From contig NZ_JAFBDH010000005.1 of assembly GCF_016908115.1 (NCBI RefSeq), positions 1-64,000 of the forward strand: a stretch of 64,000 nt of DNA, read 5' to 3'. The DNA comes from Peptoniphilus gorbachii. Lineage in GTDB: Bacteria > Bacillota > Clostridia > Tissierellales > Peptoniphilaceae. Below the pieces are notes generated by a model. It had not been told where the DNA came from. It was given only the letters and a program-made list of their open reading frames with translations, and did not search any database. Of the stretch, positions 46,295 to 55,776 are shown piece by piece (within the stretch, counting starts at the first letter, position 1; each line of letters begins with the position of its first letter). The position numbers and the translations under genes were made by a program.

Positions 46295-46418
46295 ATTCCT
46301 CCATATCTTTTAGACTAATTATATCAAAGAATTTGTGATTATAACAGAAAAAGAATGAATCTAGGGAATTTTTATTGATATTTTTATGTTATAATAAAAA
46401 TTGATATGGAGGTGTATG

Positions 46419-47027
46419 ATGAAAAAATTTAAAAAATTATCTATTTTAGTTCTTCTCCTTGCAGTGGCACTTTTGGCAACTTTCTTTGCTGGCAAAAAAG
46501 TTATGAAAAGCCAAATGGAACCAAATATAACTTCTACTTTAATTTTTAATAAATTAGTTAGTGCCAAGGAACTTACGACTCTTAAATATCACTATACAAA
46601 TATGGGACAGTTTGAAAATCAAAATACTTTTTATGGCTACAAAATTCCCTTTACATCAAAAAAATTCATAGTTTCCTATGATGGACTTATAAATGCAGGT
46701 GTGGACCTTGAAAAAATGAAGGTAGAACTTCATGATAAAAGCATTGAAATAAAAATTCCACCGGCAAAAATTTTGAGCCACGAAATTTATGAAGATTCAC
46801 TAAAGGTTTTTGACGAGAGAGAATCTATTTTTAACAGAATTGACATTGAAGACTATAACAACTTTTCTAAGGATCAAAAGAAAGAAGTTGAAAAAAAAGC
46901 CATTAAGAGAGGGCTTTTAAAGGAAGCTGACGAAGAATCTAAAAAGGCAATAGAAGAACTTCTCTTGGGAGATACAATTTTAAGTGAATATAAAATTAAA
47001 ATAACAAGGGACGATTCTTTAAAATAA
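46419..47027 (+). CDS. DUF4230 family membrane-anchored protein
   Basis: About 202 residues with one N-terminal membrane helix (LSILVLLLAVALLATFFAG) and an extracellular domain matching DUF4230 (TTLKYHYTNMGQFENQ ... KIPFTSKKFIVSYDGLINAGVD ... IEIKIPPAKILSHEI). The family function is unknown. The start was chosen at the second of two adjacent ATGs, six bases after GGAGG. Confidence 0.8.
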   Translation: MKKFKKLSILVLLLAVALLATFFAGKKVMKSQMEPNITSTLIFNKLVSAKELTTLKYHYTNMGQFENQNTFYGYKIPFTSKKFIVSYDGLINAGVDLEKMKVELHDKSIEIKIPPAKILSHEIYEDSLKVFDERESIFNRIDIEDYNNFSKDQKKEVEKKAIKRGLLKEADEESKKAIEELLLGDTILSEYKIKITRDDSLK

Positions 47028-47059
47028 AATATTAATAAGATCAAAAAAAAGGGCATTCC

Positions 47060-47222
47060 TTATAGTATGTCCTCAGATTGTAGACAAACCCAGGAATATT
47101 TTCTGGGTTTTTTGCATTTTAATGTCTTTGCTAAAAAAACCATTAATTTATTCAAAGTTAAATCTCTATTAGGATTGAATTTATATAGCAGTATTCCTAA
47201 TTTTTTCTTTAAATTAGATGAT
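47060..47222 (-). pseudogene. Possible coding remnant, unrecognised
   Basis: Reverse-strand open stretch of about 53 codons (reading ...LYKFNPNRDLTLNKLMVFL..., ending ...VCLQSEDIL) with no start codon or ribosome site. It may be the end of a lost transposase or another gene. The forward DUF4230 terminator lies within it. Weak evidence. Confidence 0.2.
47086..47113 (+). terminator. Terminator of the DUF4230 gene
   Basis: The stem ACCCAG / CTGGGT (47088-47108) with T6, about 60 bases past the stop. Confidence 0.8.
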
Positions 47223-47228
47223 TATATT

Positions 47229-47253
47229 AAAAGAGCAGGCTTTTTTTGCCTGC
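47229..47253 (-). terminator. Terminator of the hyd cluster
   Basis: Reverse-strand stem GCAGGC-aaaaaaa-GCCTGC followed by TCTTTT, about 50 bases after the hydF stop. A further hairpin AGCTGTG / CACAGCT lies at 47270-47287. Confidence 0.7.
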
Positions 47254-47305
47254 CTTGTCATCAATCTGAAGCTGTGTCACCACAGCTCTTTATTATTAAT
47301 TATCT

Positions 47306-48077
47306 TTAATAATTTATTTTATCCAGTATCCCCTTGAAATATGCTATTACTATTCCGTAGTTTGTTATTGGGATGCTTTTTTCTTTTGTACTCTCGATTC
47401 TACTCCTAATATTTTTTGCATTGTAAGTATTTAAAATTCTCTCTTCTTTAAAGTCACTTGATGTGTAAATAAATATAGAAATTTTTGGAAAATCTTCTAA
47501 GACAAAATCACTGCACTTGCCAAAAATTACAGCCTTTTTATTTTTTGCAATTTCTCTTATAGTTCTTAAATCCAAAAGAAAGGCAGCATCATTTTTTGCA
47601 ATGTCCTCTTGTGAATAGGAATAGTTTTGTCTATATAAATCGTAAATTGTCCCTTGCAAAAAGGAATCATCTTTTTTTATTTCTTCTTCTGATAAGAGGT
47701 CAATTTTATTTATTACAAGAAGGATTGGAGTGTCCTTAAATTTTTTTAGCATTTCCCTTTCAGGTCCTGTTTGGGTATCTGATACAACTAGGACTCCAAT
47801 GTCAGTTTTCGATATAACTTCGTCAGTTCTCTTCATCCTCTTTTGTCCAAGGACTGTTTCGTCTCCTATGCCTGACGTGTCCATTAAAAGACATGGCCCC
47901 AAGCTCTTAAATCTCCATTGACTTGTAAACTGGATCTGTAGTTGTCCCCTCTTGGTTTGAAACAATGGAAATATCTCGGCCAGAAAATTCATTTATTATT
48001 GAGCTCTTGCCCGAATTTACCTTTCCAAAAAATCCTATGTGAATCCTGTTACCAGAATTTGTCTTATTAAGTTCCAT
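47306..48077 (-). pseudogene. hydF: hydF remnant: frameshifted and internally replaced by a kinase fragment
   Basis: The gene starts at ATG 48077 overlapping the hydG stop (TAATG). It encodes the HydF GTPase start (G1 GFFGKVNSGKSS, G2 EGTTTDPVYKSMEI), then hits a stop because of one extra T at 47909-47911. The shifted frame continues with LGPCLLMDTSGIGDE (G3) and VINKIDLL (G4). After SEEE the sequence switches to IKKDDSFLQGTIYDLY, a 275-bp copy of a cytidylate-kinase-like gene, and then returns to the authentic HydF C-terminus (RIESTKEKSIPITNYG...AYFKGIL). The HydF dimerization region and its iron-sulfur ligands (HCGxC) are lost. HydF carries the H-cluster precursor to [FeFe]-hydrogenase, so this copy cannot work. 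Confidence 0.85.
47412..47686. repeat. 275-bp repeat, copy inside hydF
   Basis: Nearly identical to 55253-55527 in the same orientation, with no gaps and 7 differences in the 267 aligned bases from 47420 (about 97%). The downstream copy belongs to an intact gene, so this copy is the intruder. Confidence 0.93.
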
Positions 48078-49507
48078 TAAAATCTAAAATCTCTCTTTCC
48101 AACTTCTTCCATTTCGCTTATATATTCTTTAGCCTTCTTCTTTACAATTTCATTTGGAATTTTTTCAAGTTCTCTTGCAATTAAGTCTTCGCTAAGTTCT
48201 CTTGTCTTTTCATTTCCATAATCTAACATGTATTCCTTCAAAGTCATAAGGGCATTAGGCTGACAACAATTTAAGATTTGTCCTGACTTGCAAAGTTGCA
48301 TGAACCTGTCGCCAGTTCTTCCTTCCCTATAGCAGGCTGTACAAAAACTTGGGATATAACCAAGTTCCATTAGCCAATCCACAACTTCTTCAAGGGTCCT
48401 ATTATCTGCAACATCAAATTGAGCAGAGTTATCTTCTTCTAATTCTTCCTCAACATATCCACCAACAGAGGTTCTTGATCCACCAGAAATTTGACTTACA
48501 CCTAGTTCAAGAGCGCGTTCTCTAACTTTTTGTGACTCTCTAGTTGATATTATCATGCCAGTGTAAGGTACAGAAACCCTAATTAGGGCAATTAGTTTTT
48601 CAAAAATATCATCGGCAAGTTCGTTTTTAAAATCACTTGGATCAATGTCATCGGCAGGTTGGATTCTTGGAACAGAAATTGTGTGAGGCCCAACTCCAAA
48701 TCTTTCTTCCAAGTGTTCTGCGTGCATTAAGAGTCCAACTAATTCATACTTATAAGTTTCTAATCCAAATAAAACTCCAATCCCAACGTCGTCGATGCCA
48801 GCTTCCATGGCCCTATCCATGGCTTCAGTGTGGTAGGCGTAATTATGCTTTGGTCCTGTTGGGTGAAGTTCTTCATATGACTTCTTGTTGTAGGTTTCTT
48901 GGAAGAGGATGTAGGTTCCAATTTCTGCATCCTTTAATTTTTTATAATTTTCCACAGTAGTAGCAGCAATATTTATGTTGACCCTTCTTATTTGACCATT
49001 TTCATGTTTAATAGAATAAATTGTCTTAATGGATTCCAAAATATATTCCATTGTATTGTTCACAGGGTCTTCACCAAGTTCAAGGGCAAGTCTCTTGTGG
49101 CCCATGTCTTGAAGGGCTATAACTTCACTTTTAATTTCTTCTTGAGATAATTTTTTTCTTCTAATTGATTTATTTTTTGCATGGTAAGGGCAATAAACAC
49201 AACCATTAATACAATAGTTTGAAAGATAAAGGGGGGCAAACAAAACAATCCTGTTGCCGTAGTGGTCTTCCTTAATTTTCTTTGCAAGCTTATAAATTTC
49301 TTCTTGGTAATACTTGTCTTCAGCAAGTAGAAGTAAAGCCGCCTCTCTGTGGTTTAGTCCCTTTTCCTTCTTTGCCTTTTCAAGAACTTCATCTAAGAGG
49401 TCCTTATTATTCTTGTTTTTTTCTGCATAGTCAAGAGTTTCTAAGATCTCTTGATGGTTTATAAATTCATCTGCAATTTTTGAATCTAGCTTGTACAATT
49501 TCTTCAC
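48077..49507 (-). CDS. hydG: [FeFe]-hydrogenase maturase HydG (radical SAM tyrosine lyase)
   Basis: A 476-residue radical SAM enzyme with the cluster motif CINGCVYC and the C-terminal second-cluster motif CTACYREGRTGDRFM...C. It cleaves tyrosine to provide CO and cyanide for the H-cluster. It starts with GTG seven bases after AAGGA. Length and motifs look intact although both partner genes (hydE N-terminus, hydF) show damage. Confidence 0.92.
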   Translation of the reverse strand: MKKLYKLDSKIADEFINHQEILETLDYAEKNKNNKDLLDEVLEKAKKEKGLNHREAALLLLAEDKYYQEEIYKLAKKIKEDHYGNRIVLFAPLYLSNYCINGCVYCPYHAKNKSIRRKKLSQEEIKSEVIALQDMGHKRLALELGEDPVNNTMEYILESIKTIYSIKHENGQIRRVNINIAATTVENYKKLKDAEIGTYILFQETYNKKSYEELHPTGPKHNYAYHTEAMDRAMEAGIDDVGIGVLFGLETYKYELVGLLMHAEHLEERFGVGPHTISVPRIQPADDIDPSDFKNELADDIFEKLIALIRVSVPYTGMIISTRESQKVRERALELGVSQISGGSRTSVGGYVEEELEEDNSAQFDVADNRTLEEVVDWLMELGYIPSFCTACYREGRTGDRFMQLCKSGQILNCCQPNALMTLKEYMLDYGNEKTRELSEDLIARELEKIPNEIVKKKAKEYISEMEEVGKRDFRF

Positions 49508-49520
49508 TATTCCTTAATCC

Positions 49521-50486
49521 TCACTTATAATCTCCTCTAGATTTGGAAATCTTATATCCAATTTTCTCTAGTTTTTTCTCTAGTCCCATAAAGTCGTCAG
49601 AGTTTTGAACTTCTGTACCGATTTTATTGTCGTAAAGCTTATAATTTTTTCTAAGTTTCTCTGCCCCAACATTGGGCATTAAAACATTGGCCCCTGCCAA
49701 AATTCCCTTTTCTCGTCCAAATTCGTCAATACTTCCCAGGGCAGTTGTTGATGGCAAGAGAAGTTTCTCGTCAGCAATCCTTACAATGTATAAAATTTTA
49801 AGAACATCTTCTAACTTGCCGCCTTCAAAGTCCCTGAAAGGAGTGTCATGTTGGGGTATGAAGGGTCCAATTCCCACCATCTGAGGTCTTAATTTTAAAA
49901 TAAATTTTAAATCCTCATATAAATTTTCAAGCCTTTGATAAGGTGAACCCACCATCATGCCACAACCTGTTTGAAAGCCCAAGTCCTTTAATTTTAGAAT
50001 GGAATCAATCCTGTTTTCAAACTTCATAGAGCTTGGATGAAGCCTTTGGTAGTGAGACTTGGAATAGGTTTCATGCCGCAAGAGGTGCCTGTCAGCCCCC
50101 ATATTTTTCAAGGCCTCAAAGTCCTGAAAATCTCTTTCACCAAGAGAAAGTGTTATGGCAACATCAGGAAACTTTTCTTTGATATGATAAATAATTTCTT
50201 TTAAGTAATCAAGGCTATAAAAGTCATCTTCGCCACCCTGCATGACAATGGTTTTTATCCCCAGGTCCACTGAGTAGCTGGCAAGGTCCAAGATTTCTTC
50301 CTTAGACAACCTAAGCCTCTTGGTATTTTTGTTGGCCAACCTAAGACCACAATAGTAGCAATTGCTTTTGCAATAAGTGGAAATTTCTATTAGGCCCCTA
50401 ATGTAAATCTCTCGGCCAAAGTTTTTTACTGCTAAGTCTCTTGCAAAGGCATGTAAATCTTCGGCTTCAACTTTATCCAAATTCAT
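49521..50486 (-). CDS. hydE: [FeFe]-hydrogenase maturase HydE, N-terminus shortened by a stop codon
   Basis: A 321-residue radical SAM protein with the CKSNCYYCG cluster motif and the HydE core (GIKTIVMQGGEDD, HETYSKSHYQRLHP). The usual N-terminal helix is encoded further upstream in the same frame (MAIENFKDM, stop, KVYNTKEISFKDFSNL) but is cut by a TGA at 50535-50537. The first in-frame ATG after it (50486) has only a distant AAGGA. The gene may be translated in a short form or be inactive. It is co-directional with hydG, 13 bases apart. Confidence 0.75.
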   Translation of the reverse strand: MNLDKVEAEDLHAFARDLAVKNFGREIYIRGLIEISTYCKSNCYYCGLRLANKNTKRLRLSKEEILDLASYSVDLGIKTIVMQGGEDDFYSLDYLKEIIYHIKEKFPDVAITLSLGERDFQDFEALKNMGADRHLLRHETYSKSHYQRLHPSSMKFENRIDSILKLKDLGFQTGCGMMVGSPYQRLENLYEDLKFILKLRPQMVGIGPFIPQHDTPFRDFEGGKLEDVLKILYIVRIADEKLLLPSTTALGSIDEFGREKGILAGANVLMPNVGAEKLRKNYKLYDNKIGTEVQNSDDFMGLEKKLEKIGYKISKSRGDYK

Positions 50487-50750
50487 TAGGTTGGAAAAAT
50501 CCTTAAAGCTAATCTCCTTGGTATTATAAACTTTTCACATATCTTTAAAGTTTTCAATGGCCATCTTCCATTCATCTTACCCGAAAATAATTTTTTAACT
50601 ACAATTACAGTATCATATTATATCAAATTTTGTTGATTTTAAGAAACATAATGAAATAAAAAATTTTTGCACTTAAGAATATCAAAAGATGCAAATAGGA
50701 TAAAGAATTTCCATTTTATAATTCTTTTTTAGCCTACAATATAAATTTCT
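50487..50750. other. Upstream region of the hyd cluster
   Basis: It contains the disrupted hydE N-terminal codons (50487-50564) and otherwise AT-rich sequence without a further gene. Confidence 0.5.
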
Positions 50751-50752
50751 AT

Positions 50753-50784
50753 AAAAAAATGGACGCAGTAAAGACTGCATCCAT
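50753..50784 (-). terminator. Terminator of the third SLH gene
   Basis: Reverse-strand stem ATGGATGCAGT-cttt-ACTGCGTCCAT followed by T7, one of the most stable terminators in the window. Confidence 0.9.
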
Positions 50785-50815
50785 TTTTGAGAAAGTGAAG
50801 ATAATTTAGTAATTT

Positions 50816-52360
50816 TTAATTCTTCTTAGCCAAGGAATTTAAAATTTCTTGATAATCATTTGCTGCCAAGAAAATTTGAACATAGGCCCAGTGATTTTCT
50901 TTGACATCAGTGAAATTATTAAAGTCCTTAATAATCTTTTCTAAATCTTTTTTGTTAATAGAACGACCATCATAGTGGTTTAAAATTGTAACGGCTTCTG
51001 CCCTAGTAATAACACCATCTGGTTTAAAACTTCCATCTGGATAGCCAACAATGTGTCCATTACCATAAACTTGATTGATTGCATCTTCAAATTTGTGACC
51101 CTTGATATCTGCAAAAGGAGCGGTCTTGTTGTTCTTCTTATCAATACCAGCTATGGCTCTAGCAAATTCTGCCCTAGTTATTGGCTCATTAGGCCTAAAG
51201 TTGCCATTCTCGTCTGCGAACATCAAGTTGTTTTTAACCATAGCATTTATGGCTGCATTATACCATCCATTAGGTGTATCTTTGAAGTTAGGCTTGTCCT
51301 TATTGTCTAAGTCTAATCCAGCCAAGACTCCTATCATAGAAGCTGCTTCAGCACGACTTATCTTTCCCTCAGGACGGAAACTCTTGTCACCGTAGCCAAA
51401 AATATAGGCTCCATGTTTTGATTTAGGTTTTTCATTTGGAGCATTTTCTATTGCGCTTTCAGTAACTTCTACCATGTCACCATTTTCAAAATAAGTTTTC
51501 TCTGCAAATTTAACTAATACAATAGGTTTAATATATTTTGCCTTGTCTGGTAATTTAGTTATTACAATTTCATAACCACCATCCACAGCCTTAACAGAAT
51601 AGTCCTCTATTGGAAGCTCTTGTTTTTTGTATTTAGGTGTAGCTGTTGAAGTTATATCTACTTCCTTCGAAGGTTTCATAGCATTAAAATCATCTACAGT
51701 TACATAGTTAAGCTTGAAGAAGAATTTTTCATTTTCTCCAATCTTTCCTGCATCTTTTAAAGTAGATTTAATTCTTATTTTATTGTCCTTAAGGGCAACA
51801 TATTTTTTATTGTTGTGTGGGTTTAACTTATCCCTATCTCCAGAAACCTCAAAGTTAACAAGGGCTTTTTTAGTATAATCTCTAAATAAGCCAGATTTTT
51901 TACCATCAACTTTTTTAAATGGCATTGCTTCAATTTCTGCCACTTCTTCTTCACTTATTGAATTAGAATCTTTTGCTAATAATTCTTTTGCCCTAGCTAT
52001 AGAGTTTTTAATTTGAGATTTTACTTGATTGTCACCATATTCTATTGCTTCATTATCAAGAACTTTATCGTCCATTGTATCTAAATAGACTTTCAATTCT
52101 TCCTTGGCCTTTTTAACCCTTGCTGCAAACTTCTCATTTGCATTTTGATCTTCGCCAACTGTACCTGGCCTTTGACTTTCTTCTCTTTCTTTATTGGTCT
52201 TGTCAGACTTTAAGGCTATTTGCGTATAATTTTTAACTGAACTTGCATAGGCTTGTCCTGGTACTGAACCTAGCATTAAAGAAAAGCCTAAAAGGCAAGA
52301 AACAAAACCTAGTGACAACTTACTCATTCCATTACTAGGTTTTTCATTTATTTTTTTCAT
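50816..52360 (-). CDS. SLH-domain surface protein, 514 residues
   Basis: A signal peptide (about 1-39, with GFVSCLLGFSLMLGSVPGQ and cleavage near AYA-SS) is followed by a helical segment with many Lys/Glu (about 60-160), a beta-rich middle (about 165-320), and three SLH repeats (about 325-370, 385-430, 440-500; YGDKSFRPEGKISRAEA, FADENGNFRPNEP, VGYPDGSFKPDG). It is predicted to be displayed on the wall. No catalytic motif was recognised. AGGAGG precedes the start. Confidence 0.85.
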   Translation of the reverse strand: MKKINEKPSNGMSKLSLGFVSCLLGFSLMLGSVPGQAYASSVKNYTQIALKSDKTNKEREESQRPGTVGEDQNANEKFAARVKKAKEELKVYLDTMDDKVLDNEAIEYGDNQVKSQIKNSIARAKELLAKDSNSISEEEVAEIEAMPFKKVDGKKSGLFRDYTKKALVNFEVSGDRDKLNPHNNKKYVALKDNKIRIKSTLKDAGKIGENEKFFFKLNYVTVDDFNAMKPSKEVDITSTATPKYKKQELPIEDYSVKAVDGGYEIVITKLPDKAKYIKPIVLVKFAEKTYFENGDMVEVTESAIENAPNEKPKSKHGAYIFGYGDKSFRPEGKISRAEAASMIGVLAGLDLDNKDKPNFKDTPNGWYNAAINAMVKNNLMFADENGNFRPNEPITRAEFARAIAGIDKKNNKTAPFADIKGHKFEDAINQVYGNGHIVGYPDGSFKPDGVITRAEAVTILNHYDGRSINKKDLEKIIKDFNNFTDVKENHWAYVQIFLAANDYQEILNSLAKKN

Positions 52361-52709
52361 TTTTCCTCCTTAAATAATAAGAGAAACGCGCTTACAAAAA
52401 TTAGTAAAAATCTATAAGTTTTTCCTACTTATATAAGACAAAGAAGTATGTAAATAAAAACTTTCTAGTATTTCTACATATACTTAAATCATAGTATTTG
52501 TCACTTGATTTTGTTTATTATTTTATCTTTCTTTTTTTAATAATTCTTCTTCATTAAAATATTTTTAATTTTATTGCGATTGAATAAATGTTTTTCTTTA
52601 ATATATCCTCGCTTTATCTGTCTTTTTAGATATCCTTATCTTTTAATTTTAAAAGATACTACTTTAATTCAATGACTGTTTTAAAATAGTATCTTTTAAG
52701 AATATTTTT
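52361..52709. other. Non-coding stretch with a long hairpin
   Basis: About 350 AT-rich bases holding the promoter area of the SLH gene. At 52651-52697 it has an 11-bp perfect inverted repeat AAAAGATACTA / TAGTATCTTTT with a 25-base loop, probably the terminator of the HIBCH-like gene. No credible gene was seen. Confidence 0.5.
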
Positions 52710-53762
52710 TTATTTTTCTACTTCTAATAATTTTTTTACTTCTTCAATTTCAACATCTTCTAAGGACATCTCCCTCCACTTCGGCTGGTAGTCCTTATCT
52801 ATAACTTTTGATTTAATTCCCTTTTCCATTTCCCCAATTTCAAGAGCGTAATTTAAAACTTTTAGGTCTAAGTCCACAGTTTCATGGTAGGTCAAGTTTT
52901 TACATAAAAAATATTTTTCAAATTGCACTTGAAGCATAAACTGTGACCTTGCCTTTAAGTCATCATAGATTTCTCTTGCAAATTCATCTTCTAGGTTTTC
53001 TTCTAGACTTTTATAAATTTCCTCAAGGCTATCTTTATTAAAATATTTTTCAATTTTGTCATAATTTTTATCTACAAAAGTTTCCTTTACTGGCAAATTA
53101 TATTTTTCGCCTTCAATTTTTAATTTTTCAATTAATTCTTCGCCCTCATAAATTTCTGAAAGATCAATAAGTTTTTCAATTAATTTTTCATAATCCTTTG
53201 AATCAATATAGACATGGGAAAAATTATATTTAATTAAATCAGAAGCTTCAAGACCTCTTCCGAGAATGCCAACAAAATGTCCCAAGGCCTTCGGAAGTCT
53301 AGAGATGTAGTTGCAGACTCCAACATCTGGCACAAAGCCAAGACTAGTTTCTGGCATAGCCCAGTTTACAGATTCTTCTGAAATTATATAGTCTGAATTT
53401 ATGCTAAGACCAATGCCACCACCCATGACAATGCCTCTCCAGTGACTTATAAGAGGCTTTTTATAGGATGCAATATACTTATCAAGCTCAAATTCTGTTG
53501 CAAAAAATTCGTCTTTTCTCTTACAGGAATCCTTGTTTATAAAATTATTGTAGAGGTCCTTTAAATCTCCTCCAGAGCAAAAGGCCTTATCTGTCAAGCT
53601 GTCAAATAAAACTGCTTTAATATTCTCATCGTCTTCCCATTTTTCCAAAATTTCTCTAATTTTCTTTATCATTTCAAAATTTAGGGCATTTAATTTTCTA
53701 GGATTATTTAAATAAATTACGCCCAGGTTTTTTATAACTTTTGGAATAATAAAATCCTTCAT
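52710..53762 (-). CDS. Enoyl-CoA hydratase/isomerase family, 3-hydroxyisobutyryl-CoA hydrolase-like
   Basis: A 350-residue crotonase-fold protein with oxyanion-hole segments DKAFCSGGDLKDLY and WRGIVMGGGIGLS and the acidic motif MPETSLGFVPDVG, which fits HIBCH-type hydrolases better than plain hydratases. The extra C-terminal region of about 100 residues also fits HIBCH. It would hydrolyse a short acyl-CoA. No valine degradation genes are nearby, so the substrate is uncertain. Confidence 0.8.
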   Translation of the reverse strand: MKDFIIPKVIKNLGVIYLNNPRKLNALNFEMIKKIREILEKWEDDENIKAVLFDSLTDKAFCSGGDLKDLYNNFINKDSCKRKDEFFATEFELDKYIASYKKPLISHWRGIVMGGGIGLSINSDYIISEESVNWAMPETSLGFVPDVGVCNYISRLPKALGHFVGILGRGLEASDLIKYNFSHVYIDSKDYEKLIEKLIDLSEIYEGEELIEKLKIEGEKYNLPVKETFVDKNYDKIEKYFNKDSLEEIYKSLEENLEDEFAREIYDDLKARSQFMLQVQFEKYFLCKNLTYHETVDLDLKVLNYALEIGEMEKGIKSKVIDKDYQPKWREMSLEDVEIEEVKKLLEVEK

Positions 53763-55074: not shown

Positions 55075-55701
55075 TTACTTTTTATTTTTTGACATATCTA
55101 CAATTAAATTTACCAGGCTTTCAAAGTCAAAGGCTGAAGAATCTATTAAGAGGTCATAATTTGATCTCTCGCCCCAAATTTTTCCAGTATTTCTACCATA
55201 GTGATTTGACCTTCTATTATTTTCACGCTCTAATTTTAGTTCAAGTTTATCTTTTTTTACATTGTAAGTATTTAAAATTCTCTCTTCTTTAAAGTCACTT
55301 GATGCGTAAATAAATACAGAAAGTTTTGGGAAATCTTCTAAGACAAAATCACTGCACTTGCCAAAAATTACAGCCTTTTTATTTTTTGCAATTTCTCTTA
55401 TAGTTCTTGAATCCAAAAGAAAGGCAGCATCATTTGTTGCAATGTCCTCTTGTGAATAGGAATAGTTTTGTCTATATAAATCGTAAATTGTCCCTTGCAA
55501 AAAGGAATCGTCTTTTTTTATTTCTTCAGGTTTTACTTTGCCTTCCAGGCTCATAAGTTCAATTAATTTTTCGTCAAAGAATTGGTAATTTAATCTTTCG
55601 GCAACTTTTTTTGCAATTTCATTGGCTCCGCTGCCATATTCTCCATCAATTGTAATTAATTTTTTTCCAGCTTTTTCGAAAAATTTATTAAATAGTGACA
55701 T
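55075..55701 (-). CDS. Cytidylate kinase-like family protein
   Basis: A 208-residue P-loop protein of the cytidylate kinase-like group (ITIDGEYGSGANEIAKKVAE as nucleotide-binding loop; RTIREIAKNKKAVIFGKCSD; a late SNYDLLIDSSAFDFES). The cellular substrate is not established for this family. The start was set at 55701 with GAGAGGTG. A 275-bp part of it is duplicated inside hydF. Confidence 0.82.
   Translation of the reverse strand: MSLFNKFFEKAGKKLITIDGEYGSGANEIAKKVAERLNYQFFDEKLIELMSLEGKVKPEEIKKDDSFLQGTIYDLYRQNYSYSQEDIATNDAAFLLDSRTIREIAKNKKAVIFGKCSDFVLEDFPKLSVFIYASSDFKEERILNTYNVKKDKLELKLERENNRRSNHYGRNTGKIWGERSNYDLLIDSSAFDFESLVNLIVDMSKNKK
55253..55527. repeat. 275-bp repeat, source copy in the kinase-like gene
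   Basis: The same sequence as 47412-47686 at about 97% identity, here within an uninterrupted gene; an offset of 7,841 bases is kept along the whole length. Confidence 0.93.
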
Positions 55702-55776
55702 ATTCTCACCTCTCAACCATTATATATGATAAATGTGAAATCTTTTTTAATTAATATAAAATTCTTGTGAAAAATT

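Follow-up and report, generated by a model that had tools for sequence, protein, structure and literature searches.

A kinase-patched hydF remnant, probably a chimeric pseudogene, in an acquired second hydE-hydG-hydF operon of Peptoniphilus gorbachii

One of the two hydF sequences of Peptoniphilus gorbachii has lost its middle, which is occupied by a piece of a neighboring cytidylate-kinase-like gene. This hydF lies in a window of 64,000 nucleotides, the whole stretch of DNA that was analyzed, and is very probably a chimeric pseudogene within a redundant, acquired second hydE-hydG-hydF operon. The two parent genes, the form before recombination and an intact copy that survives can all be compared, which makes this a clean case in which the joints, the direction of the exchange and the later change can all be read. 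One genome of P. gorbachii was compared, and 13 other genomes of the genus were included in the searches. The intact hydF of P. grossensis ph5 (G007) served as the reference for the unrecombined form. The features of the region are listed in Table 1.

Table 1. Position and character of the chimeric hydF, its kinase donor and the surrounding genes in the window.
Feature	Position	Strand	Remarks
DUF4230 gene, island flank	46401-47027		PF14014
hyd island	47030..52708 (approximate ends)		identity step vs G007
hydF remnant	48077-47306	minus	HydF N-terminus, kinase piece, HydF C-terminus; one-base insertion near 47910
hydF remnant 3' part	47306..47418	-	HydF C-terminus to stop codon; PF18133
right joint	47419..47423	-	CAATG, 5 bp common to hydF and kinase
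kinase-derived piece	47424..47671	-	248 bp; PF13189; replaces 653 bp of hydF
left joint	47672..47686	-	15 bp identical in hydF and kinase, GAAGAAATAAAAAAA
hydF remnant 5' part	47687..48077	-	GTPase domain, Walker A GKVNSGKS; TIGR03918 match
hydG	48077..49507	-	open; 882.8 bits to TIGR03955
island hydE	49521..50575	-	1-bp deletion near codon 17 cuts original start off rest
514-aa protein gene	50816..52360	-	candidate S-layer-homology-like, by reading of the sequence
enoyl-CoA-hydratase-like gene, island flank	52710-53762		named by eye
cytidylate-kinase-like gene, source of piece	55075-55716	-	intact; 138.8 bits, PF13189 profile 2-175

The remnant is made up of two overlapping open reading frames (ORFs), 47907-48077 and 47306-47992. 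The first matches positions 1-52 of the HydF profile TIGR03918. The second contains, in this order, TIGR03918 positions 53-137, positions 29-145 of PF13189 (Cytidylate_kin2; 40.7 bits, above the curated cut-off of 28) and positions 80-114 of PF18133, the HydF tetramerisation domain, which forms the C-terminus of the remnant and corresponds to HydF positions 355-391 in the genome profile scan. These profile matches bear out the preliminary description, in which a HydF N-terminus, a kinase-like segment and a HydF C-terminus had been recognized at 47306-48077. It had also held that both ends were kept and the interior swapped, and had proposed a comparison with the hydF of relatives; set beside the intact G007 gene, the middle is indeed replaced, while the 5' part with its upstream bases and joint agrees at 435 of 439 positions (three substitutions and one insertion) and the 3' part, from the joint through the 3' flank, at 165 of 165. 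The insertion is the one-base frameshift that had been reported in the 5' part: one extra T is present in the run at ~47909-47911, and the frame ends at codon 57. The size of the replacement follows from index arithmetic, with G007 hydF standing in for the unrecombined gene, and ~codons 136-352 are gone from the island hydF.

The donor kinase gene is situated 7.8 kb from the chimera, on the same strand and in the same window. Together with its joints, the piece matches window positions 55253-55527 at 267 of 275 bases (97% identity, E = 2.5e-130), far beyond chance, and the copied donor part spans ~55260-55527. The best kinase match to the piece in the 13 other genomes of the genus reaches 86%, and the kinase of G007 only 85%, so that the resident gene is the nearest by a wide margin. 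Two other candidates were rejected. A PF13189 match on contig C1 was considered as the donor, and it is the window gene that is the 97% source. A chimera common to the relatives was also considered; none of the 13 genomes has a single match spanning hydF and the kinase piece, the two lying in separate places with short leftover matches of 26-42 bases. The piece and the resident kinase gene differ at seven sites inside 248 bp, and this bears on whether the chimera could have arisen in the assembly, by the wrong joining of hydF and kinase reads. The genome examined (G000; 99.99% complete) is a draft of 18 contigs, which leaves room for such an error, but the seven differences mean that the piece was not made of the reads of the resident gene. 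Joints of 15 and 5 bp fall below the usual length of assembly overlaps, the contamination estimate is 0.16%, and the hydF frameshift and hydE deletion are consistent with decay, all of which make an assembly artefact very unlikely.

Both joints lie at bases that the two parents have in common. No exact match between G007 hydF and the kinase gene is longer than the left-joint string, and among 200 simulated kinase copies a shared string of at least 15 bp occurred in two. This identity bears out the joint at short homology that had been suggested earlier; within the string then quoted, the shared 15 bp hold, but the GA at its end is kinase sequence and is not found at that place in G007 hydF. 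At the right joint, 11 of 12 bases are alike if the next C/T and AAAAAA are counted. As the donor kinase gene is intact, the exchange was one-way, and the two marks of microhomology-mediated one-way copying, joints at short parental identities and an intact donor, are found together. The proposal of recombination or gene conversion through short homology is supported in this form, the exact route being one of several. The sequence is also compatible with two separate events, the insertion of a kinase fragment and the deletion of the hydF middle. This is improbable, as both joints fall at bases common to both parents, a single copying event needs fewer assumptions, and no intermediate was found among the 14 genomes searched.

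The replaced part of hydF comprises the dimerisation domain and, with the [4Fe-4S] motif, nearly all of the cluster domain. In a review this motif is given as CxHx46-53HCxxC (PMC6212873), and the HydF cluster is described as essential for maturation in a 2025 paper (PMC12752695). In the remnant the motif is absent, its region being occupied by the kinase piece, and the GTPase domain is not in one open frame due to the insertion near 47910. The two remnant ORFs score 78.3 and 99.3 bits against TIGR03918, below the curated cut-off of 325.55. Since the dimerisation domain and the cluster motif are replaced, the remnant would not be expected to work as a HydF. The kinase domain is likewise incomplete: its first 28 profile positions are missing. 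As in other pseudogenes, the frame is disrupted and an intact paralogue is present in the genome.

The frame is kept across both joints: the difference between 653 and 248 is 405, which is divisible by 3, and the kinase sequence is translated in the frame of the donor gene. Retention of the frame at both joints is expected by chance in about 1 of 9 cases. Together with the open 228-aa ORF, this is what speaks for a working fusion, in which that frame would be translated into a GTPase fragment and a kinase fragment with a new role. Such a role is scarcely credible, because the HydF Walker A is encoded ahead of the frameshift, in the first ORF, the kinase match begins at profile position 29 and so is without the start of its domain, and the HydF cluster motif is gone. 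The changes within the piece also tell against it: all seven differences run towards A or T in the remnant, and the five that can be placed on the remnant branch are all nonsynonymous, the other two being synonymous and not polarisable (at one of the five sites, one of 11 relatives has the same base as the remnant). The in-frame joints do not outweigh the frameshift and a long frame that includes neither the HydF Walker A nor the start of the kinase domain, and the chimera is best regarded as a pseudogene.

The other genes of the island have changed to different degrees. Compared with G007, hydG is conserved, with 4 nonsynonymous and 13 synonymous differences (dN 0.0035, dS 0.046), and hydE shows 7 nonsynonymous to 4 synonymous differences over its 321-aa ORF, in addition to the upstream 1-bp deletion. 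When these changes are polarised with P. vaginalis KhD-2 (G003) and P. genitalis SAHP1 (G004), the window branch carries 6 nonsynonymous changes in 5 codons (one codon with two), 1 synonymous change and 1 indel in hydE, 1 nonsynonymous and 3 synonymous in hydG, and 1 and 0 in the hydF parts. On the G007 branch the nonsynonymous and synonymous counts are 3 and 2 in hydE, which is not frameshifted there, 2 and 4 in hydG, and 0 and 1 in hydF; changes that could not be assigned to a branch number 1 and 3, 1 and 6, and 0 and 1, respectively. Counted by codon on the window branch, hydE (5 to 1) and hydG (1 to 3) give p = 0.19, and the kinase piece alone against hydG gives p = 0.05, or 0.24 with the two unpolarised synonymous sites, in both comparisons from small counts. 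Pooling hydE with the piece against hydG gives p = 0.03, a value that depends on the pooling and on tests chosen after the data had been seen. The direction of the changes fits relaxed change, but these tests of it are weak, and the case rests on the frame breaks and not on the ratios.

The piece has changed more than the hydF parts on either side of it: its 248 bp contain 7 differences from the resident kinase gene, and the 604 bp of hydF contain 3 substitutions relative to G007 (p = 0.008). When only polarised changes are counted, the numbers are 5 and 1 (p = 0.009). From this excess the donor allele was maybe not exactly the resident one, or the copying was error-prone; the excess may reflect either of these, with an only slightly different allele, or chance. 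It can also be read as a sign that the chimera was made in another island-bearing strain and arrived already broken, given that 7 differences in 248 bp stand against the ~1.1-1.2% by which the island genes diverge from G007. This origin is rather unlikely and keeps some small weight. The nonsynonymous, A/T-ward changes resemble drift in a copy and not the allele differences of a working kinase, and the one other island at hand, that of G007, has an intact hydF, and the likeness of the G007 kinase to the piece is as low as noted above.

The operon that contains the chimera belongs to an island of ~5.6 kb. Measured in 200-bp bins and leaving aside the two bins of the chimera, identity to G007 is 96.5-100% between ~47.1 and 52.65 kb, and the island genes differ from G007 by 1.1-1.2% (17 of 1428, 11 of 963 and, in the 514-aa gene, 17 of 1542 bases). 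Identity in the aligned flanks is 79-94% as far as 57.3 kb and 93-97% from there to 58.3 kb; ~53.9-55.1 kb of the window has no counterpart in G007. Apart from G007, in which it is present, the island is absent at this site in all eight of the other genus genomes fetched there, a comparison that did not include G001, G006, G008 and G011. In five of these eight, namely P. genitalis, the metagenome-assembled genome Peptoniphilus sp. SUG200 (G005), P. faecalis AGMB00490 (G009), G012 and G013, the ends of the flanking genes are 31-71 bases apart.

The trees of the island and its flanks differ. In the hydE tree the two island copies group together (100/100) and then with G003 and G004 (100/99), apart from the second P. 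gorbachii copy on contig C3. The flanking-gene tree (10 rows) joins G000 with G007 (95/97), then with G005 and G009 (89/93) and with G010 (100/100). Both trees were midpoint-rooted, and the hydE tree kept 13 of 14 rows, G031 being left out by the length filter. The step in identity at the borders, the absence at the site in relatives and a tree position unlike that of the flanks mark this as a horizontally acquired island. According to the two trees it was acquired from the P. vaginalis/P. genitalis side, its nearest kin being P. grossensis at ~99%, followed by P. vaginalis and P. genitalis. Divergence of ~1% within the island, as opposed to ~10-15% in the flanks, favors a recent exchange, in which G000 and G007 would have received the island jointly or one of them from the other. 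The usual hyd locus of G007 (L144 12453-15371) holds no hyd gene any more; their place is taken by a gene whose 972-aa product was named by eye as a metallophosphatase-like surface protein.

Within the island, hydG is the only HydG of the genome above the TIGR03955 cut-off. The ORF of hydE now opens at an internal ATG (50486). Its product scores 439.5 bits, and because this is still above the HydE cut-off of 254.6, the damaged gene could possibly work from the internal start.

A search for another hydF and for [FeFe]-hydrogenase genes, which the preliminary description had recommended, was successful for both. The single HydF above the cut-off in the genome is encoded on contig C3 (391 aa, 504.1 bits), and a simple loss of hydF from the genome was accordingly rejected. 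This protein carries a Walker A motif, NKID and CxH-x45-QCGGC, the spacing having been counted by eye. A gap of 6 bp separates its gene from an intact hydE upstream, and hydG is absent between them. In G002, G003, G004, P. lacydonensis EL1 (G011) and G013 a hydE-hydG-hydF operon stands beside the same upstream neighbors, a thioredoxin-reductase-like and a MATE-type gene (both named by eye), and in G005 and G009 beside the first of these. C3 therefore represents the usual hyd locus, from which hydG was lost; among the operons of the relatives, that of G013 is broken and that of G011 has a frameshift in hydF. At L091 9040-9125 on C3, hydG is missing cleanly and the sequence of the hydG-hydF border is kept. 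Two hydrogenase genes exceed the PF02906 cut-off, and the 579-aa PF02906 product carries the three H-cluster motifs.

The chimera would have originated from a break or stalled synthesis in hydF that was repaired with the kinase gene, 7.8 kb distant, as the template, the copying entering at the 15-bp identity and leaving at the 5-bp one. Template switching, ectopic conversion or the illegitimate uptake of a fragment could each have provided the route. As an intact hydF is located on C3, the island copy would have been redundant and the chimera tolerated, after which the remnant would have drifted. H-cluster assembly in this strain would then presumably depend on the native HydF, the imported HydG and, most likely, the native HydE. 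On balance, a mixed crew seems somewhat the better reading: HydF and most likely HydE would be inherited and HydG would stem from another Peptoniphilus lineage, after complementary losses, the kinase patch being a scar of the redundancy. The arrangement is a natural test of mixing the three H-cluster maturases between species, and if the mixed crew is real, close co-evolution of HydG with its partners would not be required. The patch, if formed as proposed, offers a rare view of how many mutations microhomology-primed copying brings with it in a natural bacterium. The genome also calls for caution, in that operon-wise counts of hydE, hydF and hydG would misjudge it.

Several further observations were made on the maturases of other genomes. 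G010 and G012 (L122, L124, L145, L146) each have two PF02906 genes above the cut-off, including a 579-aa product with all three H-cluster motifs, and no HydE, HydF or HydG above the cut-off was found in these two genomes, which have an estimated completeness of 99% (G012 with 4% contamination). Among 30 HydF loci examined, 25 passed the filter. The second His of the cluster motif is a Gln (QCGGC or QCGSC) in 11 of them (L001, L029, L031-L036, L038-L040) and a His in the other 14, and the Gln variant is present in all 10 Peptoniphilus HydF that passed; a review describes the HydF histidines as essential for [2Fe] assembly (PMC6212873). In G011, hydF (L099 8318-9489) is split by a frame change at codon 107. 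In G013, which is 87% complete and 5% contaminated, hydE, hydG and hydF (L100 7667-11534) are all broken, with extra hydF sequence after codon 268. Sequencing error is possible for the breaks in both genomes; as read from these genes, decay of the maturase operon may be recurrent in Peptoniphilus.

No paper on this chimera or on complementary maturase loss in Peptoniphilus was present among the best-ranked literature matches, nor was there a match for a hydF pseudogene of this sort or for a Peptoniphilus hydrogenase with HydG; a plasmid search restricted to near matches gave no match. Both chimeric pseudogenes and pathways that have become mosaic after transfer are known. The remnant resembles HydF (TIGR03918) in its N-terminal GTPase half and C-terminal tail, which are ~99-100% identical to P. 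grossensis hydF, and differs in that kinase sequence replaces the dimerisation domain together with almost the whole cluster domain and the frame is shifted. Its 248 bp and joints are 97% identical to the PF13189 gene at 55075-55716; by contrast, the remnant has neither the beginning nor the C-terminal end of the kinase. The processes known as microhomology-mediated template switching, ectopic gene conversion and illegitimate recombination share with this case one-way copying from elsewhere in the genome, very short shared joints and an unchanged donor. Short-patch double illegitimate recombination is reportedly known from work on Acinetobacter, and no relevant paper on it was found among the best-ranked literature matches. 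Homology-facilitated illegitimate recombination (PMC3240628) uses homologous recombination at one end, whereas here only 15 and 5 bp are shared. Unlike the processes named above, the event described here is known from its end product in one genome. The acquisition of a second gene set with later complementary losses from the two is also a known kind. The present genome resembles it in that the native locus is without hydG, the imported hydF is dead and a full set exists across both loci, and differs in that the three H-cluster maturases are concerned.
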